From NCBI GenBank assembly GCA_001802375.1, contig MGXK01000084.1:1-33287 (forward strand): a stretch of DNA of 33,287 nt. Direction: 5' to 3'. This DNA comes from Gammaproteobacteria bacterium RBG_16_51_14 (GTDB taxonomy: Bacteria; Pseudomonadota; Gammaproteobacteria; Eutrophobiales; Eutrophobiaceae). Of this stretch, positions 5,265 to 21,609 are shown one piece after another. The notes below the pieces were generated by a model that ran no database searches, was not told where the DNA came from, and was given only the letters and a program-made list of their open reading frames with translations. Positions within the stretch are counted from its first letter, which is position 1, and each line of letters opens with the position of its first letter. Both the position numbers and the translations under genes were made by a program.

Positions 5265-5564
5265 ATAGATTATTCGTGTTCTGATTGTCTTCGGTAAACT
5301 TGTTTTATCGTAATAATATACATGGGCAACCGGGATATACAAGTGTCTGATATTTCAGAATACATGGGATTGAATGTCTTGTCTCATCACGATTTATGTT
5401 TAGCCGCGGGCGGTTGCAGTCAATCAATCGCGTCAGATACAAGGATAGAAGATTGGCAATCCTTTCTGATCGCAATCTACCGATAACAAGAATAAAAGCC
5501 GGTATCAGTTATTGTAACTGTCCGGTTCCTTATAATAGAAGGTCATGAACGGCGTTGCAGGTTG
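5265..5564. other. Non-coding interval between the two formyl-methanofuran operons
   Basis: About 300 bases without a convincing gene on either strand. It includes an AT-rich part (5280-5400) and a short inverted repeat AGATTG/CAATCT near 5450-5475. Short open frames here lack ribosome-binding sites and recognisable motifs. It most likely forms the distal upstream region of the fhcB promoter and the trailing region after the ferredoxin terminator. Confidence 0.5.
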
Positions 5565-5656: not shown

Positions 5657-5959
5657 CTAGAGACCCAGTCGTTCCTTTTTCTCCAATGCCCCAGGTAAAG
5701 GATCCCACTGATCATTACATACTGGCAAAGTTGGGGCGCGTTCAGCGTTGATGGCAATCCATTTCTCGTGCTCTTCCGGGATTGGGTCCTCGAATATAGC
5801 CTCAACCGGGCATTCCGGAATACATGCGCTGCAGTCGATGCAGACATCCGGATCGATATACAGCATATCGTCATCATAATGAAAGCAATCCACTGGACAC
5901 GGCACGACACAGTCGGTGAAACGGCATCCAAAACAATTTTCAGTCACAACAGTTGTCAT
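5657..5959 (-). CDS. fdxA: 7Fe ferredoxin, [3Fe-4S][4Fe-4S], FdxA type
   Basis: A 100-residue ferredoxin whose cysteine spacing (C9, C12, C17, C21, C25 then C40, C43, C46, C50) matches the Azotobacter FdI/FdxA family, with the CIDCSACIPECP block and the typical acidic C-terminal tail ending in DPLPGALE. Family members carry one [3Fe-4S] and one [4Fe-4S] cluster and move single electrons in the cytoplasm. A very strong ribosome-binding site (GGAGGAG) precedes the ATG at 5959. It is the last gene of the fwdDBA-ftr-fwdC operon. I infer that it is the electron carrier between the dehydrogenase and the Rnf or Nfn-like enzymes, replacing the FwdF/FwdG polyferredoxins of methanogens. Confidence 0.92.
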   Translation of the reverse strand: MTTVVTENCFGCRFTDCVVPCPVDCFHYDDDMLYIDPDVCIDCSACIPECPVEAIFEDPIPEEHEKWIAINAERAPTLPVCNDQWDPLPGALEKKERLGL

Positions 5960-6035: not shown

Positions 6036-6845
6036 TCAATTTCTATATAGAAGAATTTCTCCCCGATTGAGTTCGATGGAATCTCCGGCCCAGCGTTCGT
6101 AATTACCGGATAACTTTGCATCATCAATCTGGAAGCCGAGTTTTTTGATATAGGTGAGATACAAACGTAAATATGTCGGGTGATAGGTACATGCATAGGT
6201 AAAAGTGGAAAGCAAGTCTGCATCATGCATGGAAAGGATCGTACCGCGTTTCATGCCAGCCCCTGTGCGTATTCCCATTTTCCCCAGGACAATAATCGTT
6301 CCGGAAAGCATGTTGACACCAGTCAGGTCTTCACTGTTACCACCGATGACAATTAATCCGTTACGCATTGCTTGCCCGGCTTCGTTACGGGCATTGCCGT
6401 GAACAATAATCTCGCCGCCCGTGATGCCGGTGGCGCTGCCTCTGATGGAACTACCCAGCATGTGTCCGGCATTGCCCTTGATGATGATTCTGCCACCCGT
6501 CATTTCCGAGGCTGCCCAGTCGGCGACATTTCCATCAACAATGATTTTACCACCTTGCATGCCGGCTCCAAGATGGGCGCCTACATCGCCATTGACAATC
6601 AGCCGGCCGGATGTCATTCCGGCACCAATGTGTTTGACCTTTGACAGGTCGCCTTCGACCCTTATTTCTCCATTGTATTGTCCCTGCACCTTGAAAAAAT
6701 CACCGATCTTGGCCTGTACGTTACCATGGAAAACAGGCAGTGCGGACAGTGCTGATTCGTTCAGGTTATTCAACCTGTCAGGGGATATCACATCAGCTTC
6801 GACAGGTACTTCCGGTGAGGTATGTAATGACAGAGTTAAACTCAT
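6036..6845 (-). CDS. fwdC: Formylmethanofuran dehydrogenase subunit C (copy 2)
   Basis: A 269-residue FwdC/FhcC-family protein with the same beta-helix repeat pattern as its paralogue: GRLIVNGDVGAHLGAGM, GKIIVDGNVADW, GRIIIKGNAGHM, GEIIVHGNARNEAGQ, GLIVIGGNSED and GTIIVLGKMG. In archaeal Fwd this subunit holds FwdA and FwdB together, and in bacterial Fhc it does so for FhcA and FhcD. It starts 5 bases after the ftr stop and is followed by the ferredoxin gene after about 75 bases. I name it fwdC rather than fhcC because its operon carries a metal-competent FwdB and a FwdD. Confidence 0.92.
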   Translation of the reverse strand: MSLTLSLHTSPEVPVEADVISPDRLNNLNESALSALPVFHGNVQAKIGDFFKVQGQYNGEIRVEGDLSKVKHIGAGMTSGRLIVNGDVGAHLGAGMQGGKIIVDGNVADWAASEMTGGRIIIKGNAGHMLGSSIRGSATGITGGEIIVHGNARNEAGQAMRNGLIVIGGNSEDLTGVNMLSGTIIVLGKMGIRTGAGMKRGTILSMHDADLLSTFTYACTYHPTYLRLYLTYIKKLGFQIDDAKLSGNYERWAGDSIELNRGEILLYRN

Positions 6846-6850
6846 AATGC

Positions 6851-7744
6851 TCAGTTACCGTTTATTGTTTTATGTAAGTGGATATGGAACTGACCCAGAT
6901 TACCACCATAATTGCCTGCGGTGATCTGCTTGATCCCCGGTTTTGCGGCTGCATACATACCAACGCGCATGCATTCTTCAACAGCTTTGACATCGAGCCC
7001 GTCGATAACAATTTCCATCACGCAATTGACGGCCAATGGGACCATCGAGTTATTAACAGAACCACGCAGGGTAGGGCAATAGGCATCATTGGTCGATGCA
7101 GGCAGGGACTTGTACTTTGAACCTACCTTACTGCCACTGCGTACTACCCCGTTGGGGAAAGGTAATATTATGCCCGGTACTGCATGCATTGCCTTTGTAG
7201 CGGCACTGGCGGCTCGAAGCGTAGCTTTTTGATCCTTGCCTAATAGCAGAAGATTTCCACCGCCAACAGCCTCCTGTACGCCAAACGATTCTTCTACCAG
7301 GAATTCACCATCCATGACCGGAATGCGCCACATGCGTCGATTATCCAGAACCTTGCTGATCTGATGGCCATCACCGAAATAGCGGAGTTGATCACCGACG
7401 GAAACGGTAGTGCCTGAAACAAGGCCGTTATAACAGGCTGTGGTAGGGCAGGTCATAACGCACTGACCGATTCTCTCTACCAGGCGTTTACCAACCCCCT
7501 CGGCATTCATTGCGAACAGTAATACGCTGACACCATGCCTTTGATCCGGTGTTTCATCAGCAGGCAGTTCACGTTCAATGCCTGCCTCGCATTTACAACC
7601 GATGACCGAGGTAGCAAAGCCTGTCATTGATTGTGCAGCCGCCATTGCCCATTCACGGGTTTCTGCCGTGATGATCACACGGCTGCCACACATCTTGAAG
7701 GCTTCAGCAAATGTATCGACTATCTCTGTAGACTTGATTTTCAT
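6851..7744 (-). CDS. ftr: Formylmethanofuran:H4MPT formyltransferase (copy 2)
   Basis: A 297-residue Ftr/FhcD protein, exactly the archaeal family length. It shares with copy 1 the DTFAEAF start, FGDGHQISKVLDNRRMWRIPV, the VGGGNLLLLG glycine stretch, GSKVGSKYKSLPASTND and a C-terminal TAGNYGGNLGQFHIHL. It exchanges the formyl group between formyl-H4MPT and formyl-methanofuran. It lies between fwdA (8-base gap) and fwdC. Having a dedicated formyltransferase in each operon means each formyl-methanofuran enzyme can be assembled as an independent unit. Both copies look intact. Confidence 0.95.
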   Translation of the reverse strand: MKIKSTEIVDTFAEAFKMCGSRVIITAETREWAMAAAQSMTGFATSVIGCKCEAGIERELPADETPDQRHGVSVLLFAMNAEGVGKRLVERIGQCVMTCPTTACYNGLVSGTTVSVGDQLRYFGDGHQISKVLDNRRMWRIPVMDGEFLVEESFGVQEAVGGGNLLLLGKDQKATLRAASAATKAMHAVPGIILPFPNGVVRSGSKVGSKYKSLPASTNDAYCPTLRGSVNNSMVPLAVNCVMEIVIDGLDVKAVEECMRVGMYAAAKPGIKQITAGNYGGNLGQFHIHLHKTINGN

Positions 7745-7752
7745 AATTATTA

Positions 7753-9390
7753 TTACGTTGAACCTGTTGAAATTACTTCGTTATCGTGCATATATGATTT
7801 ATCAATAGGGTAATTTTCAAATTGAACGGAATAATAACTTTCAAAGAAGGGCTGGATCACCTCTTCGATCTTTTGATCATATTCAGGGGTGATATGTAAC
7901 AGACGTCCTGTATGATCTTCTCTGAATTCGTGATCAGCAATGATGTGAACACCGGATTTCAAAACATAGCGCGGTGCATTGAACATCATCTCCTTGTCTT
8001 CCATCTCGTCATGGATGGTGATATCGGCATCGGCCCCTGGTCCGAGATGTCCCTTGTTTTTCAGACCGAGCGCACGTGCCGGTCCGGCACGGGTGATAAT
8101 GGCGATTTCGTAGAGGCTATATTCGCGATCCAGGTCGCTGATCATCGTCTTTGCAATGGCCTTTTGATTGACCCGGGCTATTTCCTGCCGGCGAAAACCC
8201 CTATCCATCAACAGGCGGATCAGTTTCGGATAATTCATGAATGAGCCGCCGTTCGGATGGTCCGTAGAGAGGATAACCTGCCACGGGTTCTCTGTGAGCA
8301 GGAATAGTTCCAATCCAATCGCCCACTGCAGCGTGTGAGTATAGACGTGTCCCTGATACGTGAAAGGAACGATACCACAACCGCTTTCACACTCCGTATC
8401 GGCATTGACCCACTTGTTCTTGTTTATACCCCGTAGCATATAGGCCAGGGGGGCATCGGCCGTCATACTGAGTGCATTGCCAAACATTACTTGGCCAACA
8501 TCACAGGTAATGTTGGGGTGTTGATTGATATACTCGATGATCTCTGCTGCCTTTGAAGCAGGTTGTTTGCCAACCTCCCCACCATAGCAGTTAAACTGGA
8601 TATGGGCTATGTGGAGGCGTTTGTCTCCAGCCGTGCGCATGGTTTCCAGGGTCGTCCTGTAGTTGCCGCTATGGCCAAGGTTATTGCAGTGAATATGAGC
8701 AGGATGAGGAAGGTTCATTTTATCTGCTGCAATAACAAATGCCTCGATAATCTGGCGCGGCGATATGCCATCCACCTTCTCGTCGATATCATGGACATTG
8801 GTATTGCGTTTCCCCTTCCAGGGTTCATCTCCACCGGGATTGACCAGCTTCGGTGTATAGGCCCTGGTGGCATTCATCCACCAGGCAACCGCCTGCTGGA
8901 ATTCCTCCTGCCTGCCTTCCTTAATCAGGTTCTGCAGAAAAATATTGTTGGCCAACAGGACATAGAAACCCTTGTCGATGACCGGGGTGTCGTGAAGTTC
9001 CTCGAGTGTGTGTCTGGCAGAGAGGGGGGGGACTGCTGCTTCCATCGCAGTCGTGTATCCCATGGTGGCATAGCGGTAGCCGGTGGTGAATGTGGACGGG
9101 ACGATTCCTCCAGAACCCGAACGTGTGACTGCCGTACCGGGGTAAGGGTCCTTTCGGTGATCTTCAGGCATGAGCTTGCGACCGGCATTAACCTTGGGGC
9201 CTGCAATATGACAATGTATATCAACACCGCCCGGCATGATTACCATGCCCTGTGCTTCAATACGGGTAGCACTATCCGGGACAGATTCTACAATACGACC
9301 ATCTTCAATGCAGATATCCCTGATTACACCATCGATGTTATTAATGGGATCGTACACCTTCCCATTGACAATGCGGGTTGCCGACACCAT
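7753..9390 (-). CDS. fwdA: Formylmethanofuran dehydrogenase subunit A, amidohydrolase (copy 2)
   Basis: A FwdA/FhcA amidohydrolase of 545 residues from the chosen start. Metal-site residues are complete: H59 and H61 in IHCHI, K181 in PKLVNPGG, H232/H234 in HIHCNN, H260/H263 in HIAHIQF, and D377 in STDHPNG. In archaeal Fwd this subunit interconverts formate and formyl-methanofuran, with formate tunnelled to or from FwdB. I chose the ATG at 9390 because AGGGAGA lies about 6 bases upstream and the next residues align with copy 1. A longer frame from GTG at 9453 overlaps the fwdB stop by one base but adds 21 residues unlike the family. It sits between fwdB and ftr. Confidence 0.94.
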   Translation of the reverse strand: MVSATRIVNGKVYDPINNIDGVIRDICIEDGRIVESVPDSATRIEAQGMVIMPGGVDIHCHIAGPKVNAGRKLMPEDHRKDPYPGTAVTRSGSGGIVPSTFTTGYRYATMGYTTAMEAAVPPLSARHTLEELHDTPVIDKGFYVLLANNIFLQNLIKEGRQEEFQQAVAWWMNATRAYTPKLVNPGGDEPWKGKRNTNVHDIDEKVDGISPRQIIEAFVIAADKMNLPHPAHIHCNNLGHSGNYRTTLETMRTAGDKRLHIAHIQFNCYGGEVGKQPASKAAEIIEYINQHPNITCDVGQVMFGNALSMTADAPLAYMLRGINKNKWVNADTECESGCGIVPFTYQGHVYTHTLQWAIGLELFLLTENPWQVILSTDHPNGGSFMNYPKLIRLLMDRGFRRQEIARVNQKAIAKTMISDLDREYSLYEIAIITRAGPARALGLKNKGHLGPGADADITIHDEMEDKEMMFNAPRYVLKSGVHIIADHEFREDHTGRLLHITPEYDQKIEEVIQPFFESYYSVQFENYPIDKSYMHDNEVISTGST

Positions 9391-9452
9391 CAAGTTCTCC
9401 CTAAAAGTTGAAATTTCTGATTTTGTTATAGCTTTATTAGGTAACTTTATCA

Positions 9453-10823
9453 CTACATTGATGCATGTAGTGTTGCTTTCCCGATGTCACTTCGGGCTGA
9501 CATACCTATACTTCGTTTATCGATATTGAGTTCAAAAACCCTGTTCTTTATGGCGCTTAATATTACCACGTCAGAGGGGTATGGTGACTCAAAGGCCGGG
9601 CGCAGGGTAATCGGGATATCGTCCATTCTGTAGGCTGTTCCGTGTTCGTTAAGCCCCCATGCCGACGTTGAGAAGACGACATAGGCAAGCTCACTGGTTA
9701 CCGAACGCCTGGTATCCAGTGAGATCACAGGAATCCGTTTCATTTGTTCTACGGCTGCCTTGGGAAAGTTGGAGGCAGGGTCACTGGCAATAAACATGGC
9801 TGCATCCGCCCCGTCCCTGGCGAGGTTGTCAACGGCGGTGAATTCACCCGGATTGAAACGTGGATAGCCGAGATTGAAGTTCACCCCGAACGGGTAACCG
9901 GTCTGCCAGGTAAGTACCTGATCTGCCCCTGTGACGTTGCCATGTCCACGGGCCGGCTTGACCACAAAGTGGGTGTATTCATTTAAATCAGTCACCATGG
10001 AAAACAGTGCCCCGGTATTGAAATACCGGCCCCTGCCCATGGTCAGACCCATGCCGAAGAAGACGACCCCGAAATTGCAGTTCTTCATACGTTCAGCCAA
10101 ATCCTGCAGTGTTTCCAAGGGTACCCCGGTAACCTTTTCAATAGAGGCATTGACCTTCTTGCCTTTAATCAGGGCCCGCAGGGCCCATATCATCTCGAAA
10201 TCAGTAGCTGGTTTGGGCCGAATATGTATGTTTGCTACCGGTGCCGAAGCCGTTTTCCTGGGATCCACCAGGACTACTGTCCTGTCTTTCTTGCCCCTTG
10301 GTATAAACATCCCTTTGGTGGTCACTGCATAGCGTGTAAACAGGCGGGGATGGGCCTCGGCTGGATTACAACCCCAGAAAATAACCAGGTCAGCCCGGTT
10401 CTTGACCTCACCGAGTGTCGTCGTTGATTCGCCGACGCCCTGAAATGCCATACCGGTGGGCCCATGACAGACCGATGAGGTGGAATCTATTGATCCGCGC
10501 ATATAATCAGCGATGGCAACAGCCTCACGTTGTGCTTCCACGGAGGCTTCGCTCAGACCGTAGATAATGGGAAATTTTGCCTTTGTCAGTATCTGTGCAG
10601 ATTCCTCAACCGCCTCTTCAAAACTGACTTCCTTGCCACCGATCGCGGCAATCGGTCGGTCCTCGATAACATGTTCTGAAAACCATGACCTTCCAAGGAT
10701 ACAGGCATTTTTGGCCTTGGTAATGCGATGTTCATCAAGATCGACGGTGAGTTCCATGTCATCGCAGACACAGCCACAAAAAGTACAAACAGCATTCTTT
10801 ATCGTGCGGGTATTTTCACTCAT
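9453..10823 (-). CDS. fwdB: Formylmethanofuran dehydrogenase subunit B, molybdopterin/tungstopterin catalytic subunit (copy 2)
   Basis: A 456-residue FwdB homologue with every visible catalytic feature of the archaeal enzyme. It has a [4Fe-4S] motif C13-x2-C16-x3-C20 plus C41, and the metal-ligand cysteine C119 in the SVCHGP motif. It also has a pterin-nucleotide-binding VVLVDPRKT and a C-terminal half with LTWQTGYPFGVNF. In methanogens the equivalent cysteine binds W or Mo held by two pterins and reduces CO2 to formate. This contrasts with bacterial FhcB, including the copy at 3856-5172, where this cysteine is lost. A FwdD-like gene lies just upstream. The inferred reaction is CO2 and methanofuran to or from formyl-methanofuran with ferredoxin. 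ATG start at 10823; weak ribosome-binding site. Confidence 0.93.
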   Translation of the reverse strand: MSENTRTIKNAVCTFCGCVCDDMELTVDLDEHRITKAKNACILGRSWFSEHVIEDRPIAAIGGKEVSFEEAVEESAQILTKAKFPIIYGLSEASVEAQREAVAIADYMRGSIDSTSSVCHGPTGMAFQGVGESTTTLGEVKNRADLVIFWGCNPAEAHPRLFTRYAVTTKGMFIPRGKKDRTVVLVDPRKTASAPVANIHIRPKPATDFEMIWALRALIKGKKVNASIEKVTGVPLETLQDLAERMKNCNFGVVFFGMGLTMGRGRYFNTGALFSMVTDLNEYTHFVVKPARGHGNVTGADQVLTWQTGYPFGVNFNLGYPRFNPGEFTAVDNLARDGADAAMFIASDPASNFPKAAVEQMKRIPVISLDTRRSVTSELAYVVFSTSAWGLNEHGTAYRMDDIPITLRPAFESPYPSDVVILSAIKNRVFELNIDKRSIGMSARSDIGKATLHASM

Positions 10824-10957: not shown

Positions 10958-11305
10958 TCACACAATTACTTTTTCTATCACGACTTCCATGTGTTTGGAG
11001 ACCGGCATCCCGGATCCATAAGTTTCGCTGTCCATCAAATGGGTCGTCGGCGGACCATAGGGTATTGCCAACAGTCCTTGTGGCAGATCATCCGGTTTTT
11101 TCCCCCTGCAGGTTACGATGACTTCACCCACTTCATTGCTCAGGCGGACCTTGTCTCCTTCCTGCAGGCCAAGGCGTTCCATGTCGTCCGTGTTGACATC
11201 CACCATGGACGTCTCGAGCATGTATGCTTCTTGTAATTTACCTTTATTAAGAGCCGTTCCCTGCTCGGTCGTACGAACAGGTATCAAAATCATTTTTTCT
11301 GACAT
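10958..11305 (-). CDS. fwdD: Formylmethanofuran dehydrogenase subunit D, molybdopterin dinucleotide-binding
   Basis: A 115-residue protein of the molydopterin dinucleotide-binding fold. Key stretches are MERLGLQEGDKVRLSNEVGE, the barrel signature of the C-terminal domain of Mo/W oxidoreductases, and LLAIPYGPPTTHL followed by GSGMP, as in archaeal FwdD/FmdD. With FwdB it completes the metal-pterin pocket. Bacterial Fhc complexes lack this subunit, and the first fhc operon here has none, so its presence is strong evidence that this operon encodes a real dehydrogenase. Start ATG at 11305 with a GGAGAT ribosome-binding site. It is the first gene of its operon, behind an FNR-type promoter; fwdB follows after 134 bases. 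Confidence 0.88.
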   Translation of the reverse strand: MSEKMILIPVRTTEQGTALNKGKLQEAYMLETSMVDVNTDDMERLGLQEGDKVRLSNEVGEVIVTCRGKKPDDLPQGLLAIPYGPPTTHLMDSETYGSGMPVSKHMEVVIEKVIV

Positions 11306-11349
11306 GATATCTCCATTGAAATGTCTTGTGTGCTTTTGCCCGGGTGGTG

Positions 11350-11396
11350 ATTATATTCTAATTTCAGGATGAATAAATTATTTTGATCAGGATCAC
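11350..11396 (-). promoter_or_regulatory. FNR/Anr-type promoter of the fwd operon
   Basis: On the minus strand GTGATCCTGATCAA (11396-11383) matches the FNR consensus TTGAT-N4-ATCAA with one mismatch. Exactly 22 bases later comes TAGAAT (11360-11355), the spacing of class II FNR promoters in which the box is centred at -41.5. A perfect TATAAT (11355-11350) overlaps. The site lies 78 bases upstream of the fwdD start. It suggests induction under low oxygen. Confidence 0.55.
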
Positions 11397-11470: not shown

Positions 11471-14400
11471 TTAAACAAGTTTACAGTCTTGTTGAATATC
11501 TTCCAGGCAATATGCAATCCACTGATGTGTCAGTTTTTCATGCACGGCATTCTGATTCAGGCGCTGGTGCAAGCTGGGGAAAACCACCCGATCCAGGTGC
11601 TGATCCTGATTGAAGCACGAAAAGACCACGGACTCCTCACCACATTCACTGTCGAGGTGAAGTTGCAGACACTGCGCACAGATCTCCTTCATCATGCATT
11701 GCATGGGTGAATTGATACTGCCCAGGGCTACATGGTCGGGTTTAAGATATCCTTTCAGCACTGTATGTCGGGCTTCACGTACCGCGTTCATCATCCTGTC
11801 CGAACCGATGGCGATGATGCGATCGACGGTGTTGAGCGGTGTATTGATTTCTCCCAACTCCCCCCTGGCGTAAGCCGTCATCGCCTGGATGATATTGCCA
11901 ATAAACGACCGATCCTGGGGTCGTCCAGGCTCAAAACCGGGGTTTACATCACAGCACCAGATGACCTCATCAGAAGCTGCTTCAATGTTCTCAATATGGT
12001 AACGGTCGAGTACTGACTTATAAGCGGCGAAATAAAGCACTTTTGAACCGGCCTGACGCGTGGCCTGACCAATGGAAAACAGAACAGCATTACCCAGACC
12101 ACCGCCCAGGAGAAGGACGGTTTCATCGTCCGGTATCTCGGTGGGGCTGCCGGTAGGGCCCATCAGAACCACCTGTTCACCTGGCTTGAGCATGGCGCAC
12201 AGATTAGAGGAACCACCCATTTCCAGCACAATCACGGAAATCAGTCCCTTGTCGTGGTCCACCCAGGCGCCAGTGAGGGCTATGCCCTCCATGGCAAGCA
12301 TGGTCCCGTTTACCTGCATCGCATTGGCCTCATAATTCTGGAAACGGAAAAATTGTCCGGGTTTAAACGCCCTTGCGGGTAACGGTGCATGGATGATGAC
12401 CTCGACAATGTTCGGGGTCAGGCGTTTGATATCATGCACCCTGGGCCTCAGGCCGTCATTGAGATGACTGACGAGATCAGCGGACGCAACCCGGCTAGGC
12501 TTGATCCTGCCCAGCATCCGGTTGAGCACCGGAAAACCCTGCTTGGCACTGGCGATCGCCTTGACCACATTGCCGGCATATGACGGGTGCAGGTCTCCAA
12601 AGAAGCTCATCGCCCGGCCATCATCACGAATGTTCATCACCACGTGAGGGGTTTCTGGTTTGGTCGATAATTCAGGCGTAACCGGATGACCGTCCTCGTC
12701 CCTGGCCTGGAAGTATTTGCCGGCCATTTCTGCAAAGCCGGGATATTCGCGGGCAAGCACTGTGTTGGGTTGAGTCCCTGCGGCGATTAACAGTGCACGT
12801 GCGGGCAGGCTTACGTACTCACCAGCCGGTATCGGCCGACCGTTTTCATCAAGGGTCTGGCGTTCCAGCCGGATTGCCTTGACATGGCCGTATTCATCTA
12901 CATCGACTGCGGTTGGTGCCAGCAATTCTGCGAAACGAATCCCCTGCTCAAAGGACTTTATGATTTCTTCGTGGTTCAGCTGATAACTGGGTGCCCCTGT
13001 CATTCGACGCCTGTAGACGATTGTTGAACCACCCCATTGGTTAAGAAGCCCGGTAAAGCCGGGTTCGCGACCTTCTTTTTCCGCCATTTGCCGCTCGGAA
13101 CGGATTGCCCTGGCGTGACTGATAAATTCATCGGCGATGATTAATTCTTCTTCTGTGTAGGAAGCGCGTACCGCTTCCTTGCCAATTTTTGCAGCCAGGG
13201 TTTCGTAACGGGCCTGAAACTTCTCAACCTGGCGTATGTAGTACGCCAGGATCTCGGTCGCAGTGTCGATAGCAGTCAGACCACCTCCGACAATAACGGC
13301 AGGCAGGCGGATCTGTAAATTTGCAACGGAATCTTTTTTTGCTGCACCGGTAAGCTGCAGCGCCATCAGGAAATCGGATGCCTGGCGCACACCACGGGCC
13401 AGGCCATTGGGGATGGAAAGATAAGTGGGTTTGCCCGCTCCCGCGCATAGTGCGATGTGATCGAATCCCATTGCATAGGCGGAGTCAGCAGTAATTGCGC
13501 TGCCGAAACGGACCCCGCCGAACATAGTGAATGTTTTTCGACGTTCGAGCAGTAGCCTGATTACTGTAAGAAAGTTTTTGTCCCAACGGACCGTAATACC
13601 GTACTCGGCAACACCACCAAAACCTGCCTGTGGGCGTTCATCCAGGGATTCATAGATCGAGGTGATGTCCCTGATCGGCTCGAAAGGAAACCGGTCGCCC
13701 GCAGGAGTCACTCCCGAAATTTGTGGTGCCAGAGGCTCGATCTTCAGTCCGTCCACTGCCACTACCGTGTGCCCTTCATTCAACAGGAAATGGGCCAGTG
13801 AAAATCCTGACGGACCCAGACCAACGATTAAAATCTTGTAACCTGATGCCGATTGAGGCAGGGGTCGTTTGAAATTCAGCGGGTTCCAGCGCGTCAGAAG
13901 GCTGTATATCTCGAAACCCCAGGGTAGTTCAAGGATATCCTTGAGTATCCGTGTCTCTACCTGCGGGATATTGACCGGCTCCTGCTTTTGATAGATGCAA
14001 GACTTCATACAGTCGTTGCAGATACGATGTCCTGTTGCAGCCACGGTAGGATTGTCAACGACGATAATGGCAAGAGCCGCGAGTGAATACCCATCCAGTT
14101 TGGCACGATGCATTTCAGAAATGCGTTCTTCAAGCGGGCAACCGGCGAGGGGGATCTGCAGTGGATTTGTCAAGTATTTACCGGATTTTTTGGCCGGATA
14201 GCCCTTGGAGCAATAATCCGTATCCTGTTCGTGGCAGATCACACAGTAGTTTGCCTGATCCAGGGCGCCTACAAGGTCTGTTCCACGATCCGTCAGTGCG
14301 AAGCCATCCCGATGGCTGGTATCTCCGCTGCCGTTTTCCATCATGGAGATGGAGTGCGCTTCAACAATCGAGGTGGAAACCAACGCCTGAAAATTGATTT

Positions 14401-15040
14401 TGCCGGGACGCCGGAACAGGACATCATCCTTGTGACGTTTGCGACCAGCCTTTGTATACAGTGCCCAGGCGGCATAACGCCTGGCCAGATCGAGGGCTTC
14501 TGTGTTTTTCGCCTCATCTTCCAGCCAGTCCGTCACATGGTTGGCAAATACAACCTGATCAAGGGTGGTGCCGAACAGTTTCTCCAATTTATCGGTAAGT
14601 AACGTACCATCGAAGGTTTCGGCCTCTTCTGGCAGCCAGGCCTTGACTGTCTGACGCTGTACGAATTTGCGCTTGCAGGTATAAAGATTCGCTATGTTAG
14701 CTTGCCGGGTTACCAGGTCAGATACGGCCTCATGTATGCCAAACAGGTTTGCCAGAAATGAATCCAGATGTGGCGCAAGCGCCAGCATCAAATCCGAGGC
14801 GGCTTTTCTGTCCAGGTCATCCGGGATTTGTTGTGCCTCGATCAGCCGTTCATGCAGGTAACCATCTGACAGGAGCAGATGGTCCATGAACAGGGAATCG
14901 ACACGATCCAGGCCTTCTTTGTCATAAAGATCCTCGAAGGACAGGTCGTAGGCAAGATGCAGTTCTGCCATGACTGCTGTGGTATTGTTACTTGTAGGTA
15001 AGCCAGCCCCTACGATATCAATTAAGCCGGTTTCATGCAA
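11471..15040 (-). CDS. Large fused flavoprotein: GltD/NfnB-like oxidoreductase joined to NfnA/PyrK-like FNR domain
   Basis: An 1189-residue protein. Residues 1-260 are mostly helical and unrecognised. Two cysteine groups follow (C266, C269, C277, C301 and C341, C344, C348), resembling the Fe-S domain before GltD/NfnB. An FAD Rossmann motif ILIVGLGPSG is at 403-412 and a second, NAD(P)-type AVIVGGGLTA at 581-590. From about 865 comes a ferredoxin-reductase fold with FAD motif KPGQFFRF (893-900), a GGGLGNA nucleotide loop (979-985) and C-terminal [2Fe-2S] cysteines C1115, C1121, C1124, C1142. The order matches NfnB fused to NfnA, the bifurcating NADH-dependent reduced ferredoxin:NADP+ oxidoreductase. 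That activity is inferred; plain ferredoxin:NAD(P) oxidoreductase is an alternative. It follows rnfB by 56 bases. The TTG start is uncertain; ATG at codon 24 is possible. Confidence 0.75.
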   Translation of the reverse strand: MHETGLIDIVGAGLPTSNNTTAVMAELHLAYDLSFEDLYDKEGLDRVDSLFMDHLLLSDGYLHERLIEAQQIPDDLDRKAASDLMLALAPHLDSFLANLFGIHEAVSDLVTRQANIANLYTCKRKFVQRQTVKAWLPEEAETFDGTLLTDKLEKLFGTTLDQVVFANHVTDWLEDEAKNTEALDLARRYAAWALYTKAGRKRHKDDVLFRRPGKINFQALVSTSIVEAHSISMMENGSGDTSHRDGFALTDRGTDLVGALDQANYCVICHEQDTDYCSKGYPAKKSGKYLTNPLQIPLAGCPLEERISEMHRAKLDGYSLAALAIIVVDNPTVAATGHRICNDCMKSCIYQKQEPVNIPQVETRILKDILELPWGFEIYSLLTRWNPLNFKRPLPQSASGYKILIVGLGPSGFSLAHFLLNEGHTVVAVDGLKIEPLAPQISGVTPAGDRFPFEPIRDITSIYESLDERPQAGFGGVAEYGITVRWDKNFLTVIRLLLERRKTFTMFGGVRFGSAITADSAYAMGFDHIALCAGAGKPTYLSIPNGLARGVRQASDFLMALQLTGAAKKDSVANLQIRLPAVIVGGGLTAIDTATEILAYYIRQVEKFQARYETLAAKIGKEAVRASYTEEELIIADEFISHARAIRSERQMAEKEGREPGFTGLLNQWGGSTIVYRRRMTGAPSYQLNHEEIIKSFEQGIRFAELLAPTAVDVDEYGHVKAIRLERQTLDENGRPIPAGEYVSLPARALLIAAGTQPNTVLAREYPGFAEMAGKYFQARDEDGHPVTPELSTKPETPHVVMNIRDDGRAMSFFGDLHPSYAGNVVKAIASAKQGFPVLNRMLGRIKPSRVASADLVSHLNDGLRPRVHDIKRLTPNIVEVIIHAPLPARAFKPGQFFRFQNYEANAMQVNGTMLAMEGIALTGAWVDHDKGLISVIVLEMGGSSNLCAMLKPGEQVVLMGPTGSPTEIPDDETVLLLGGGLGNAVLFSIGQATRQAGSKVLYFAAYKSVLDRYHIENIEAASDEVIWCCDVNPGFEPGRPQDRSFIGNIIQAMTAYARGELGEINTPLNTVDRIIAIGSDRMMNAVREARHTVLKGYLKPDHVALGSINSPMQCMMKEICAQCLQLHLDSECGEESVVFSCFNQDQHLDRVVFPSLHQRLNQNAVHEKLTHQWIAYCLEDIQQDCKLV

Positions 15041-15096
15041 AAGCCGGTGTCATGGTCTTGTTTATTGAGCGTTTTCCCGTGGGTTACCGGATATGA

Positions 15097-15966
15097 TTAA
15101 ACAGCAATTTTAAACTCAACACGCTTCGTTATATTTTTGTTATATGGATTTACCAGTACGATATCTCGCGGGCAGCATTCGATACAGATTTCGTTGCAAT
15201 CCGGCCCGTACGCAACACATTTTTCATGATCAATCTGCATCAGGTCAGCTTCAATCGTTATGGCACCGGCAGGACACTCCTTGACACATTTTTTACAATA
15301 GGTGCAGCTCATCCCACATACTTTTTTTGATTTGTTGGCAATTTCTTTGGTACTGCACTGGATGAGAACCCGGGCATCAATTGGCGTCAGTTCCATGATG
15401 TTTTTGGGGCAGACTTCGACGCATATGCCGCAGCCAACACATAATTCCGGCGAGATCAGCGGGAAATCGTCCACCATGATGATGGCGTCAAAAGGACAAC
15501 TGGCTTCACAGTCTCCAAGCCCCGTACAACCAAACCGGCATGCCGAGGGCCCACCGAAGGCAAGTTCTGCCGCAAGGCAAGAGGTAAATCCGGTGTAGTT
15601 TGATTTCCTTTTGACGTTACCCCCGATGCAGGAGCATTTCACGTTGGCAACCATACCCTCCTTGAAATCCAGTTCCTTCCCGGTGAGGTCAGCTATGATT
15701 TCCGCCACCTCCTTCTTGCCTGGAAAACAGAGACTGGGCGAAACACTCTGATCCTTTACTACTGCGATAGCATAGCCTTCACAACCCGGGAAACCACAGG
15801 CACCGCATTGTGCCATTGGCAGTGATTCCTTAACCTCTTCGACCTTGTGATCTGTCTCAACTGCAAACTTACGTGCCGCTAACGCAAGTCCAATGCCGAA
15901 GATAAGACCCATACTACCCAGCAGAGCGATACCACCCAGTACTAGTTTGATAAGTTCTGATTCCAT
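15097..15966 (-). CDS. rnfB: Rnf complex subunit B, ferredoxin-accepting polyferredoxin
   Basis: A 289-residue protein with an N-terminal membrane anchor (residues about 5-31). It has the RnfB C54-x2-C57-x4-C62-x17-C80 cluster in QCGACGFPGCEGYA. Several ferredoxin motifs follow: CTGLGDCEASCP, CVGCGICVEVCP, CTYCKKCVKECP and CNEICIECCP. RnfB is the cytoplasmic entry point for electrons from reduced ferredoxin in the Rnf ferredoxin:NAD+ oxidoreductase. The length and cluster number resemble clostridial/archaeal RnfB more than the roughly 190-residue enterobacterial form. It is the last rnf gene of the order C-D-G-E-A-B, 11 bases after rnfA, and precedes the large flavoprotein gene. Confidence 0.95.
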   Translation of the reverse strand: MESELIKLVLGGIALLGSMGLIFGIGLALAARKFAVETDHKVEEVKESLPMAQCGACGFPGCEGYAIAVVKDQSVSPSLCFPGKKEVAEIIADLTGKELDFKEGMVANVKCSCIGGNVKRKSNYTGFTSCLAAELAFGGPSACRFGCTGLGDCEASCPFDAIIMVDDFPLISPELCVGCGICVEVCPKNIMELTPIDARVLIQCSTKEIANKSKKVCGMSCTYCKKCVKECPAGAITIEADLMQIDHEKCVAYGPDCNEICIECCPRDIVLVNPYNKNITKRVEFKIAV

Positions 15967-15977
15967 AGCTGCCTCAA

Positions 15978-16934
15978 TTAACTGATTGTCATACCTGAAA
16001 AACCAAGAAATGCAAGTCCAAATTGACCCGCAACCAAGAATGCAACAGGCAGTCCTTTAAAACTCTCCGGTACCTGGGCCAGATCCAGCCGTTCCCTGAC
16101 GGATGCCATGAGATAGAGTGCGAGTAAAAAGCCTGAACCTGCACCGAGAGCCAGCATCATTGCTTCCCAAAACCCATAACCCTCTTTTGCCAACATCAGC
16201 GGTACTGCAATGACCACACAGTTCGTTGTTATTAATACCAGATAGATTCCGAATGAGGCAAACAGGAACGGGTTTACTTTCCTGAGAACCGTATCCATTG
16301 CCTGCACCGATAGTGATACCAAACCGATAAACACGACTACCTGTAAAAAAGTGAGGTTGTAAGGCACCATAAAATAGGTATAGAAAAGCCATGACATGGC
16401 TGTACTCATCACCATGACTGCTGTGAATACGATCCCCATACCCTTTGCAGTTTCCTTCTTTTTCGATGTGCCCATGAAAACACACAACCCCAGGTATTTG
16501 GTAAACACAAAGTTTTTAATCAGTAGTGCCGTAATCAGAATCGTCAACAGATACCCCAAGTAGGATTTTTTAACCGTAAATGATAAGGGGCTTTCGCCAC
16601 TGGTCATGCCCGCTACCGTGATGATATGGGGCTGGGACTGATTTAAAGGTTCAATAAAGGTGAGCTTGGCTGTGGTTTCATCAGGGCTGACCTTGATATT
16701 GGTTACCTGCAGGCGTATATCCGGATCGGATTCTTCGTAGACCGTATAGCTCCCGGGTTCAAGTAAGTGACCTTCAGCCAGCGGTTGGGCAAAGGTGAGG
16801 ACAATTTCGTTTCCCTCACCGAAAGCGGTATTCGCGATCAGATTTGTGCCAGCAACCGTATTAACTGCCCACAGGGCCGACACTAGGGCTAGCACAACTG
16901 TTACAGGCCGGCATATTACTTTTATGACTTTCAT
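15978..16934 (-). CDS. rnfA: Rnf complex subunit A with extra N-terminal periplasmic-type domain
   Basis: A 318-residue protein in which the usual RnfA membrane core (about 190 residues) occupies residues 124-318. It has the conserved NFVFTKYLGLCVFMG motif with C151 and a second cysteine in ITTNCVVIA, the pair expected at the intramembrane [2Fe-2S] centre shared with RnfE. Residues 1-29 form a signal-like hydrophobic segment. Residues about 30-122 form a soluble domain (FAQPLAEGHLLEPGSYTV, then VSPDETTAKLTFIEPL) that reads like a CopC/SbsA-type Ig-like beta-sandwich. RnfA is reported to have its N-terminus outside, which fits a periplasmic extension. The gene overlaps rnfE by 74 bases. A GAGGA lies about 11 bases before the ATG. 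Confidence 0.92.
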   Translation of the reverse strand: MKVIKVICRPVTVVLALVSALWAVNTVAGTNLIANTAFGEGNEIVLTFAQPLAEGHLLEPGSYTVYEESDPDIRLQVTNIKVSPDETTAKLTFIEPLNQSQPHIITVAGMTSGESPLSFTVKKSYLGYLLTILITALLIKNFVFTKYLGLCVFMGTSKKKETAKGMGIVFTAVMVMSTAMSWLFYTYFMVPYNLTFLQVVVFIGLVSLSVQAMDTVLRKVNPFLFASFGIYLVLITTNCVVIAVPLMLAKEGYGFWEAMMLALGAGSGFLLALYLMASVRERLDLAQVPESFKGLPVAFLVAGQFGLAFLGFSGMTIS

Positions 16935-17556
16935 GAAAAATCGTCCTCAACCTCTTCTGTTTATACACATTTTCAACGTAATTAAAGAACCCCATCATTA
17001 ACCCGACGACAAAGAATCCTGCGACGGGCAGAACAAAGAACAACAGTGGCTGGAAACCCATGATGTCATAACCCAGCAAGGTACCCATGCCCAGCAACTC
17101 GCGAATGGCCCCAATCACGACCATCCCGATCAAAAAACCCATTCCCATGCCGAAACCGTCCCAGAATGAAGTCGTCAATGTGTTCTTGCAGGCAAACATT
17201 TCCAGCCGCATGGTGATAATGGCAAATGCCACGATGAGTTTTACAAAAAGCCCTACCTGGCTATAAGCGACAGGGAAATAGGCGGCCAACACCATATCTA
17301 TCACGGTTACCCATGTACCGATAACCAGGACATAAGTCGGGATCCGTATGCGTGGATGGACAAGACGTTTCCCGATGGCAATGGTGCAACTCGATGCAAC
17401 CTGGACAAAGAAAACGGCTACCCCCAGCAAAATCCCGTTCATGATCGTCGTTGTCATGGCGACTGCAGGACACATCGATAATGCCAGACGAAAGATGGGA
17501 TTTTCATCCAGTATGCCATTAAGAACCAGTTCCAGGTTTGTTTTTTTCGTTGCCAC
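16861..17556 (-). CDS. rnfE: Rnf complex subunit E
   Basis: A 231-residue polytopic membrane protein, the usual proteobacterial RnfE length. It starts NGILDENPIFRLALSMCPAV with the conserved cysteine at the first helix, and has EMFACKNTLTTSFWDG with the second. With RnfA it forms the pseudo-symmetric membrane core and the intramembrane [2Fe-2S] site through which electrons cross. The start is GTG at 17556 with an AGAGG upstream. The 3' end runs 74 bases into rnfA; the overlapped tail (residues about 207-231) is hydrophilic with two cysteines and is unlike the family. It lies 33 bases after rnfG. Confidence 0.93.
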   Translation of the reverse strand: MATKKTNLELVLNGILDENPIFRLALSMCPAVAMTTTIMNGILLGVAVFFVQVASSCTIAIGKRLVHPRIRIPTYVLVIGTWVTVIDMVLAAYFPVAYSQVGLFVKLIVAFAIITMRLEMFACKNTLTTSFWDGFGMGMGFLIGMVVIGAIRELLGMGTLLGYDIMGFQPLLFFVLPVAGFFVVGLMMGFFNYVENVYKQKRLRTIFHESHKSNMPACNSCASPSVGPVGS

Positions 17557-17589
17557 AGTTAAAACCTCTTTCTTGGGCCGATACTCCTG

Positions 17590-18501
17590 TTAAAAGGATA
17601 CAGGGATAGATTGTTCATTAATCACATTTTCCAGTATCTGCAGCCTGTAGACAAACTTTTTCAGCATGTTTTTCAGGCCATTGGTAACTGCATCACTGGA
17701 AATAGTTGCCCCTGTCAAGGCGTGAATATCAGCATCCTTGTACTTCTGCCTTATTGCTTCCTGCTCTGCTTCCAGCATCTTGATATCCTGCTTCTCTTCC
17801 TCAAGATATTTTCGGTATTCATCGGGTAATGGGACTTTGACGACCTTGATCGTTTTCATAGCTTCCACTGTCTTGCCAGCAAACTGATTTTTAAAGTAAT
17901 CCTTTTCGATCTCGGCGCCTAAACCTGGATCCTCCTCGTGCGCAACTACATCAAATCCCAGGACAGACAGTTGAGGATCAAGCGCCAGAAAAACCTTTAT
18001 GAAGGTTTTGAACCCGGGGAACTGGCCAGGTAACAGATAAGCCTGCCGTTTGTCGCCATCATTTACGATAATGGCTTCATCCGCGAAAAAGAAATGCATA
18101 TCACCAGGCAAGGCAGCGATCAGCACCTTGTCTCGTTCACCAGCATCTGAAACCTTTTCCGGTGTGATTGACAGGGCAAATTTTTCTGCAAACTGGCCTT
18201 CCAGATCGATCATAACCAGCTGAAAGCCATTATCGATATCACCTTTTACGGGTAAGATATAGCCAAGAAACTTATTCTCACCCTTGCTTATAATGTAGCG
18301 GTAGATATTGAAAAGTTTCACACTGGCAGGCGCCGGATTATCAAGGCCATAACCCAGTAATCCGAGCATGACATTTTGCTCAGAGATATGTTCATTGTGC
18401 AGTTTTGCCTCATTGGTCAGCATAAAAACACCACCCATAACAGAAGCTGCAAGTACACAGGTGAGTGTCAGCCGTAAGACAATATCCGGTACTTCTTTCA
18501 T
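17590..18501 (-). CDS. rnfG: Rnf complex subunit G, covalent-FMN protein
   Basis: A 303-residue protein with one N-terminal membrane helix (about residues 8-28), an extracytoplasmic FMN-binding domain and the flavinylation motif ALTGATISS, in which T266 should carry covalent FMN. RnfG relays electrons within the Rnf complex. Between the VEAMKTIKV strand and the TGAT motif lies an unusual charged stretch (residues about 224-258, rich in E, K, D, Q) likely to form a long helix. Family members usually have a shorter loop there. The start ATG overlaps the rnfD stop as ATGA. This sequence does not encode the ApbE flavin transferase needed to load FMN. Confidence 0.93.
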   Translation of the reverse strand: MKEVPDIVLRLTLTCVLAASVMGGVFMLTNEAKLHNEHISEQNVMLGLLGYGLDNPAPASVKLFNIYRYIISKGENKFLGYILPVKGDIDNGFQLVMIDLEGQFAEKFALSITPEKVSDAGERDKVLIAALPGDMHFFFADEAIIVNDGDKRQAYLLPGQFPGFKTFIKVFLALDPQLSVLGFDVVAHEEDPGLGAEIEKDYFKNQFAGKTVEAMKTIKVVKVPLPDEYRKYLEEEKQDIKMLEAEQEAIRQKYKDADIHALTGATISSDAVTNGLKNMLKKFVYRLQILENVINEQSIPVSF

Positions 18502-19508
18502 TGGTCACTCCCCAGTGGCGGTGCAAATCGTTGCGGTCTGAACCAGACCTCAAGTGCTGGAGTCATTGGATTCATCAGCAGAATGGCGTAAGCAACACCC
18601 TCTGGATACCCCCCCTTCAGACGAATCAGGACTGTAAGCGCCCCCACACCGAAGCCAAAGACCAGTTTTGCCTTTGCCCCCATCGGCGTAGTGACATAAT
18701 CCGTAGCCATGAAGAACGCCCCTAACATCGCTCCTCCTGCCAGGACAGCGAGAATCGGGTCCCCGGCAAACAGTTTCTCATCACCGCCGAATATCCAGGT
18801 CAGCAGGGCGATAGTGCCCAGCATCGCAACCGGTGTGTGCCAGGTGATGTATTTTTTATACATAAGGAAAAGCCCACCTGCCATAATGAGAAAGGTGGAG
18901 GTTTCGCCGATGCAACCAGGGCGCCATCCCAAAAAGAACCTTCCATAAAATGACGATGGTGAACCAAACTCCTCTATCAGGGCTGCCATACCGCCATGTG
19001 ATAGCAGATAGAGAGGTGTAGCGGCCGATACAGCATCGACGGTCTCGCCGTAAAAAGAAAATATCTCCATGGTACTCAGCGGTGGCATCCAGGCGGCCGT
19101 CATGGCTACGGGAAATGTCGCCATCAGAAAAGCCCTGGCCAGTAAAGCAGGGTTAAAAATATTGTAACCAATGCCGCCAAGCAGGTGTTTCCCGATATAT
19201 ATCCCCATGATGGCACCCAATGGTGGCAGCCATAACGGGGCACTCGGAGGGATAATGTAGGCTATTAACAGCCCGGTAATTACAGCGCTGCCGTCATAGA
19301 TGGTAACCTGTCTCTTCAAACATTTCTGCGTAATCGCTTCAACAACAACACAGCTGATGACACACGCCGCCGTTATTACGAGGGTCTGTATCCCGAAGAT
19401 GAATACGGAAAGAACCAGCGGCGGCATTAAACAGGCCGCCACCGTCCACATTATTTTTTCAACCGATTCACTGCTCTTTATATGTGGTGATATTGAAACC
19501 TCCCACAC
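18498..19508 (-). CDS. rnfD: Rnf complex subunit D, covalent-FMN membrane subunit
   Basis: A 336-residue polytopic membrane protein with the family N-terminus VSISPHI, an YDGSAVITGLLIAYIIPP block, GGIGYNIFNPALLARAF, and DAVSAATPL where T164 is the expected covalent FMN site. It takes part in ion-translocating electron transfer. The GTG start at 19508 fits the family. However, an AGGAG (19565-19561) lies 7 bases before an in-frame ATC at 19553, fifteen codons upstream, with no stop between, so a longer product from a non-standard start is possible. It lies 94 bases after rnfC and overlaps rnfG by 4 bases. Confidence 0.93.
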   Translation of the reverse strand: MWEVSISPHIKSSESVEKIMWTVAACLMPPLVLSVFIFGIQTLVITAACVISCVVVEAITQKCLKRQVTIYDGSAVITGLLIAYIIPPSAPLWLPPLGAIMGIYIGKHLLGGIGYNIFNPALLARAFLMATFPVAMTAAWMPPLSTMEIFSFYGETVDAVSAATPLYLLSHGGMAALIEEFGSPSSFYGRFFLGWRPGCIGETSTFLIMAGGLFLMYKKYITWHTPVAMLGTIALLTWIFGGDEKLFAGDPILAVLAGGAMLGAFFMATDYVTTPMGAKAKLVFGFGVGALTVLIRLKGGYPEGVAYAILLMNPMTPALEVWFRPQRFAPPLGSDQ

Positions 19509-19602
19509 TTCTGCGGCGGTCTCGGCTGATATTTCTGTTGTTTGCTTGATGATGGTATTTCTCCTGCTACTTTTTCTGCAATTTTGTTATGTGATTTGCG
19601 GA

Positions 19603-20964
19603 TTAGACTACAAGCGGCTTTTTGTTTAATTCCATTTTTGCCAAACGGACAAACTGGACGAGTGGACGCTTGGCTGGACAAACATAAGCACAACTTCCGC
19701 ATTCGAAACATTCCAGTGCACCAAATTGCCGGGTGTCCTTCCCCTTGCCAGCTTCCACGTACATCCCGATTTCACATGGTTGCAATCCCATCGGGCAGAC
19801 CTCAACACACCAACCGCACCGAATACAATTTGAGTGTGGTCTAATATCTATCTCATCTTTTGTCAGAAACAATATAGAAGAGGTGGTTTTGAGGATGGGA
19901 ATATCCAGTGTAGAAACGGCAAACCCCATCATTGGGCCACCCAATACAACTTTCTTGAGATCCTCCGTTGTCCCGCCCAGGTAATTAACTATATCGGAAA
20001 CGAGCGTGCCCACTTTCACATTCAGATTGGCTGGCCGTTTGATACCACGGCCTGAGATGGTAACGACCTTTTCGATAAACGGTTTATTCAATACGGCAGC
20101 TTCATAGATTGCCCGGGCAGTCGTTATGTTTTGAACTACCACACCTATTGCCAATGGTAAACCGAACCCCGGAACTTTTCGGCCGGTCAGGCTCTGTATC
20201 AACTGCTTTTCAGAGCCTTGCGGGTATTTGACCTGCAAGGTCTTTACTGCGATTTCGACTTGTTCACCACGATTGGCAGCGTCCCTTGATTGTTTTCGCG
20301 CCGCATCGGTCATTGTTGCTATAGCATCGGGCTTGTTAGCCTCAATGCCGATCAGACAACGCTTTATGCCGAGGATCTTAAGGATAACCTGCGCACCAAT
20401 AATGACCTCTTCCGCATGTTCCACCATGATACGGTGATCCGCAGTGAGGTATGGTTCGCACTCCGCACCGTTTAAAATCAACGTATCAATCCTGGCATCG
20501 GGTGGTGGTGAGAGCTTTACATGAGTAGGAAAGCCGGCACCCCCAGCCCCGATGATCCCGGCTGCACGCACCTTGTCTTTTAGTTCTTCCCGTGAAAATG
20601 CATTCCAGTCGACCGGTGTATAGCAGACTGGTTCTGAATCAGTGGAGCTGCGGATCGTGACAGAAGGAGTGCTCACGCGGAATGGATGATATGAATCACC
20701 TATGTTGGCGACTGTGCCGCTTATGGGGGCATGAATCGGAACACCGAGTCCTCTACTTACCTGACCAATCAGCTCACCTTCCTGTACCTTGCTGTGCTTT
20801 TTTACCAGCGGTTCACATGGGACACCGATATGCTGTCCAAGTATGATCTCAAGATTGGCTGGAACCGGCATTTCCTCAATGGGTATTCCTGAGGTCAACT
20901 CCTTCGATTCGGGAGGGTGCACCCCACCCTTCGGAAAGGTTAATAACGCTGCACTATTCATCAT
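19603..20964 (-). CDS. rnfC: Rnf complex subunit C, NADH-binding Fe-S/flavoprotein
   Basis: RnfC of 453 residues from the chosen start. The N-terminus FPKGGVHPPESKELT is the family signature, followed by an IGAGGAGFPTHVKL nucleotide/FMN-binding stretch related to NuoF. Two [4Fe-4S] motifs sit near the C-terminus: C380, C383, C386, C390 and C419, C422, C425, C429. RnfC exchanges electrons with NAD(H) on the cytoplasmic side. I chose the ATG at 20964, which gives the usual short N-terminus. An in-frame TTG at 21000 would add 12 residues. It is the first gene of the order rnfC-D-G-E-A-B, which is that of clostridia and Methanosarcina rather than the enterobacterial A-B-C-D-G-E. Confidence 0.94.
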   Translation of the reverse strand: MMNSAALLTFPKGGVHPPESKELTSGIPIEEMPVPANLEIILGQHIGVPCEPLVKKHSKVQEGELIGQVSRGLGVPIHAPISGTVANIGDSYHPFRVSTPSVTIRSSTDSEPVCYTPVDWNAFSREELKDKVRAAGIIGAGGAGFPTHVKLSPPPDARIDTLILNGAECEPYLTADHRIMVEHAEEVIIGAQVILKILGIKRCLIGIEANKPDAIATMTDAARKQSRDAANRGEQVEIAVKTLQVKYPQGSEKQLIQSLTGRKVPGFGLPLAIGVVVQNITTARAIYEAAVLNKPFIEKVVTISGRGIKRPANLNVKVGTLVSDIVNYLGGTTEDLKKVVLGGPMMGFAVSTLDIPILKTTSSILFLTKDEIDIRPHSNCIRCGWCVEVCPMGLQPCEIGMYVEAGKGKDTRQFGALECFECGSCAYVCPAKRPLVQFVRLAKMELNKKPLVV

Positions 20965-21000
20965 AGGTTGTTCTATCTTGGAAGGTTGATTTTTTGTCAA

Positions 21001-21609
21001 GGAATGAATCAGGCGTCACTATATGCCTTTGTTTGGAATCATTCTAACATACTACCATATCTTTGTATTTGAACGCTTTATTGTATGTGAATATTTGATC
21101 TCGAATTGTGAAGATTTGTTAAATTTCTGTTAATTCTGAAAGCAGATACATACTCTAGTTAACTTGCAGTATGAATAAGCAAGGCTGTGTAGTCAGTACG
21201 CGCTAAATGCACTTTTTTTTAAATTTAACAGTGCCACCCGTGTCCCTGCCTGCGACTGTGATTTAACTCAACTGTCGGTAAATAATCCGATCCACTGTTC
21301 TTGAATTAACTACATAACATAATTTAAACAGGGTAAAGGTATTCTGCACTAAACGGACTGAATCTGTGATTGATCCAGATCATGTTTCATTCAGACTTTG
21401 TATTTAACTGTCCGCAACCCATAATTTTCAGGCAGAAAATCAACGACAGATCTTTCTGATACGGTAAGATAACAGGCAGGGTCATCAACAACAAATACAC
21501 TACCGGAATGATAAGGAGTATTTCGATCGTTTCATATAAAGTATTATGATCCTGATTTGCCTGGCCTGTCCTTCTGATTTCAGGGTTATATTAATTCAGC
21601 GTAGAGAAG
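21001..21609. promoter_or_regulatory. Divergent intergenic region between rnfC and beta-RFAP synthase, with FNR-like box
   Basis: About 600 AT-rich bases with no convincing gene. TTGATCCAGATCAT at 21370-21383 is one mismatch from the FNR consensus, but no -10 element lies at the standard class II distance on either strand. TGTTAA occurs twice 11 bases apart at 21117-21133. The region must hold promoters for both the rnf operon (left) and the H4MPT operon (right); I could not place them exactly. Confidence 0.45.

Follow-up and report, generated by a model that had tools for sequence, protein, structure and literature searches.

FNR-activated promoters have a characteristic geometry, with 19 of 23 carrying the FNR box at −41.5 ± 4 (PMC3688515). 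The narGHJI, nirB, dmsABC and nrfA promoters of E. coli share this position of about −41.5 and lack a good −35 element. The candidate promoter in front of fwdD described here also lacks a good −35, and its box would have the same position if TAGAAT is the −10. It differs from these class II cases in that its box carries one mismatch that creates a CRP half-site, in that its target is a C1 (methanofuran) enzyme, and in being predicted from sequence alone. At the cld gene of Ideonella dechloratans, a class II FNR box matching the consensus at 9 of 10 positions is functional (PMC7349173); this box too was first found by sequence and has its centre 41.5 nt from the predicted start, but it has been tested by reporters and fnr complementation, whereas the fwdD promoter is known only as sequence. 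At ompW, E. coli FNR binds TTGATTTAAATCAC, whose single mismatch is identical to that of the fwdD box, GTGATCCTGATCAA, and the ompW CRP site at −42.5 has, like the fwdD site, only one good half (PMC4886647). The FNR and CRP sites of ompW are separate, whereas at fwdD a single site fits both proteins.

The window, that is the whole 33,287-nt stretch of DNA that was analysed, has a 165-bp intergenic gap ahead of fwdD, with the following features in and around it.

11471–15040, minus strand: the next gene upstream of the promoter, encoding a 1189-aa flavoprotein that resembles GltD/NfnB-NfnA, with its stop at 11471
11440–11426, minus strand: intrinsic-terminator-like hairpin CCCGCGTTTTGCGGG with a T-rich tail, GC-rich, fold z −2.2, 3′ of the upstream gene
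11396–11383, minus strand: candidate Crp/Fnr-type box GTGATCCTGATCAA, one mismatch to TTGATN4ATCAA
11360–11355, minus strand: candidate −10 TAGAAT, exactly 22 nt from the box
11355–11350, minus strand: alternative −10 TATAAT, 27 nt from the box
11311–11314, minus strand: Shine-Dalgarno GGAG, read directly, five nt before the fwdD ATG
10958–11305, minus strand: fwdD, formylmethanofuran dehydrogenase subunit D, ATG at 11305

The original prediction had placed an FNR-type class II promoter at 11350–11396, and its anatomy was confirmed: the box has the position given to it and agrees with the FNR consensus in 9 of 10 bases, the distance to TAGAAT is 22 bases, and TATAAT overlaps TAGAAT by the last T of the latter. 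With TAGAAT as the −10, arithmetic gives a predicted start at 11348 and a box centred at −41.5; with TATAAT, the start moves to 11343 and the box to −46.5. TATAAT is the better hexamer, which counts against the FNR reading. Inspection of the 16–18 nt spacings found no good −35 element before either hexamer, TATAAT having only a poor one, TTTATT, at 16 nt. The fwdD leader is ∼43 nt long.

A perfect TATAAT allows the fragment to be read as a weak constitutive sigma70 promoter with the poor −35 TTTATT, the box being a chance match. Boxes with one mismatch are indeed common in the window (4 found against 2.5 expected) and are not rare on their own; those with two mismatches show no clear excess. 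The exact class II geometry is harder to obtain by chance, since a box with at most one mismatch and a TAnnnT at exactly 22 nt has a probability of about 3e-4 in the 165-bp gap and of about 0.8% when both strands of every intergenic region in the window are counted. These figures come from a first-order Markov model based on the intergenic sequence of the window and are post hoc, so the joint figure is moderate rather than decisive. We rejected a genome-wide excess of the 22-nt spacing as unconvincing: at equal stringency, 14 boxes had a TAnnnT at 22 nt and 11 at 30 nt. A second FNR-like box with one mismatch is present in the window:

21370–21383, no strand assigned: TTGATCCAGATCAT, in the rnfC/GHMP-kinase intergenic region, with no −10 at 22 nt

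The presence of an fnr gene had been put forward as a check on the prediction, and the genome has one. Two Crp-domain proteins were found, one FNR and one CRP. The FNR has CTNCSLTELC and a fourth cysteine, making up all four cluster cysteines, as well as an ETVSR recognition helix, and it exceeds the cut-off of the NCBIfam Fnr model; in its cluster cysteines and ETxSR helix the genome resembles the E. coli class II case. The best solved match of the protein is the FNR of Aliivibrio fischeri. Pattern searches of the genome gave 19 perfect matches to TTGATN4ATCAA; the reversed pattern, a control that is biased by composition, gave none. Of the perfect boxes examined, 10/17 are intergenic, and the adjoining genes include hemN, cytochromes c, a multihaem cytochrome and an aldehyde:ferredoxin oxidoreductase (AOR); the hemN in question itself adjoins fnr. 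A true FNR gene together with perfect boxes beside anaerobic genes makes a working FNR regulon probable, and such a regulon, like the very weak −35, argues against a purely constitutive promoter.

The same box, taken one base wider as TGTGATCCTGATCAAA, matches the CRP consensus TGTGAN6TCACA in 9 of 10 bases, a fit equal to that for FNR. Of its two halves, the left, TGTGA, is perfect for CRP and the right is perfect for FNR. The FNR match claimed in the original prediction stands, but an equally good CRP match, with CRP encoded in the genome, had been overlooked. The CRP is a CRP/Vfr orthologue, above the CRP equivalog cut-off and with Vfr as its best solved match, and there are genes of the adenylate cyclase family (class III), assigned at family level only. 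Because the two fits are equal and both genes are present, the regulator cannot be named from the letters of the site. CRP (Vfr-like) with cAMP might bind TGTGATCCTGATCAAA at the class II position, so that the fwd operon would follow the carbon and energy state, or FNR and CRP might compete for one hybrid site. There are precedents for both arrangements: E. coli CRP acts through TGTGATCTATGTAGGA at −42.5, where only one half is perfect (PMC4886647), and overlapping FNR and CRP sites occur at guaB, ptsH and uxaB (PMC3688515). Two observations speak against CRP, namely the perfect FNR half on the right and a perfect FNR box before the fwd-containing operon of the nearest relative (below). The right half deviates from the CRP consensus at a base by which the CRP and FNR specificities differ. 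We consider control by CRP, alone or in competition, to be unlikely, and FNR is the more likely of the two regulators.

Conservation of the box upstream of fwdD, a further check that had been proposed, was not borne out. No box with at most one mismatch and a spaced −10 precedes fwdD in any of 28 orthologues from relatives, or at any of 75 related loci (genome contigs) that include FNR-bearing relatives; the two sets overlap. In most relatives fwdD is divergent from a GHMP-kinase gene with sigma70-like promoters in between, and in many a sigma70-like TATAAT promoter precedes fwdD. In the two nearest relatives (G011 and G024) the Nfn-like gene alone lies between the GHMP kinase and fwdD, and fwdD follows closely after it. 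G011, the nearest, has FNR. Its Nfn-like gene is preceded by a perfect FNR box, with a TACCAT −10 at 23 nt, and the box hence stands before a longer operon that carries the fwd genes. In G024 (79% complete) there is no box at that place, and no FNR was found.

In a MAFFT alignment, the −10 region of the window lies opposite TATGAT/TATGAC of these two relatives, which are themselves without the box there. TATAAT may therefore be the older −10, and this alignment, with the many TATAAT promoters before fwdD elsewhere, favours the constitutive explanation; the box before the G011 operon, like the exact geometry, tells against it, and overall we think it improbable. The arrangement in G011 and G024 also raises the possibility that fwdD has no promoter here and is transcribed by read-through of the rnf-Nfn-like operon. 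The window has instead a 165-bp gap with a terminator-like hairpin and good −10 hexamers, and read-through seems very improbable. The fwdD promoter seems to be specific to this lineage, in which inserted genes separate fwdD from the neighbour that was ancestrally divergent from it, and the comparison fits an FNR control that would be recent and labile rather than an old, fixed feature.

The relatives also showed several conserved leader elements. An element GGCGCYGGC is found in the fwdD leaders of L038, L040, L041, L055, L057, L064, L066, L067, L069, L070, L075–L077, L079, L084 and L086, and a GGGCTGG variant lies before the Nfn-like gene in L033 (6130–6170) and L145 (1315–1355); the element keeps its leading place in the operon even where a different gene comes first. 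GGCGCYGGC is possibly within a short hairpin. RNAalifold gave no structure on the ungapped alignment of this leader (class A), although a 5-bp stem specified by hand has a higher score than shuffled and slid controls. A different leader, AGAGTTAGYACACA...TCYATTYTCTCTC, lies ∼120–150 nt before fwdD in L059, L061, L062, L065, L072, L074, L081 and L083; its complementary arms suggest a junction and possibly an unrecognised cis-regulatory RNA. Rfam searches gave nothing of note in the window, in part of L059 or in 20 fwdD loci, and no meaningful match for the L059 leader. A short promoter-leader, CCCTAAGGTATAATC...CCACGGCAGGATGCG, is common to L094–L096, L098 and L099 upstream of fwdD. Upstream of fwdD in L037, L043, L045–L048, L050, L071, L089 and L104 there is a shared promoter that combines TACTGTA as its upstream element with a GAYTATAATC-like −10 and has no FNR box. 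In L027 (G007) the aligned protein of the fwdD match contains a TAA in frame, owing either to a nonsense mutation or to an error of assembly.

The operon has the order fwdD-fwdB-fwdA-ftr-fwdC-fdxA and adjoins the fhc operon (5172–473). Its remaining genes and the other neighbours are as follows.

9453–10823, minus strand: fwdB, Mo/W catalytic-type subunit
7753–9453, minus strand: fwdA
6851–7744, minus strand: ftr, formyltransferase
6036–6845, minus strand: fwdC
5657–5959, minus strand: fdxA-type ferredoxin gene, its match below the equivalog cut-off
5264–5236, minus strand: good sigma70 promoter TTGACA-17-TATTGT of the fhc operon, before fhcB
15097–21000, minus strand: rnfCDGEAB

FwdB keeps both the cluster motif CTFCGCVCDD and the CHGP cysteine, whereas FhcB has no cysteine in the stretch matching CHGP. 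Fwd is therefore of the Mo/W catalytic type and Fhc of the scaffold type, in agreement with the Mo/W dehydrogenase that had been claimed. The claim that the fhc promoter lacks an FNR box also held: from fdxA to fhcB there is no box within one mismatch, only sites with two mismatches at 5414 and 5466, and the good sigma70 promoter is found instead. Although fwdD has been stated to be absent from Proteobacteria (PMC5020050), we found its relatives in dozens of gammaproteobacterial MAGs.

At 11471–21000, rnfCDGEAB and the NfnB-NfnA-like fusion gene are inserted between GHMP kinase and fwdD, the usual, ancestrally divergent neighbours. The rnfA frame (15978–16934) encodes 318 aa, with the RnfA domain starting only at residue 130; either the N-terminus carries a long extension or translation starts ∼390 bases further in. 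Together, Rnf, the Nfn-like protein, FdxA and Fwd look like a ferredoxin-centred redox module.

Taken as a whole, 11350–11396 is probably a class II promoter that answers to a Crp/Fnr-family activator, and we give FNR about an even chance of being its regulator. The anatomy, the fnr gene, the probable regulon and the G011 box speak for the FNR-type promoter originally proposed; its conservation before fwdD did not hold up, and the site fits CRP equally well. We infer the binding of FNR, the start site, the response to oxygen and the acting regulator as follows. The terminator would end the rnf-Nfn-like transcript ahead of the fwd promoter, and an activator-dependent class II promoter would drive fwdD-fwdB-fwdA-ftr-fwdC-fdxA separately. 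Without oxygen, a [4Fe-4S] FNR dimer would bind the box centred at −41.5, compensate for the missing −35 and bring sigma70 RNA polymerase to TAGAAT. Low oxygen would then be the main condition under which the cell makes the oxygen-sensitive Mo/W formylmethanofuran dehydrogenase and the accompanying ferredoxin, whereas the operon for the hydrolytic Fhc would use its ordinary sigma70 promoter.

The promoter type is itself ordinary and well known; the interest lies in oxygen sorting Fhc from Fwd within one cell. In the literature searched, FNR control of fwd or fhc, including oxygen control of a bacterial fwd operon, has not been reported. The Fhc complex and the Mo/W formylmethanofuran dehydrogenase occur together in many gammaproteobacterial MAGs. 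We suggest tentatively, at rather less than even likelihood, that oxygen acting through FNR divides H4MPT-linked C1 oxidation between an aerobic, hydrolytic Fhc branch (formate) and an anaerobic, ferredoxin-linked Mo/W Fwd-FdxA branch working with Rnf and the NfnAB-like protein. If oxygen does control Fwd only, a C1 enzyme of an uncultured gammaproteobacterium would be switched on at low oxygen only, and Fhc and Fwd would be alternatives for oxic and anoxic conditions.
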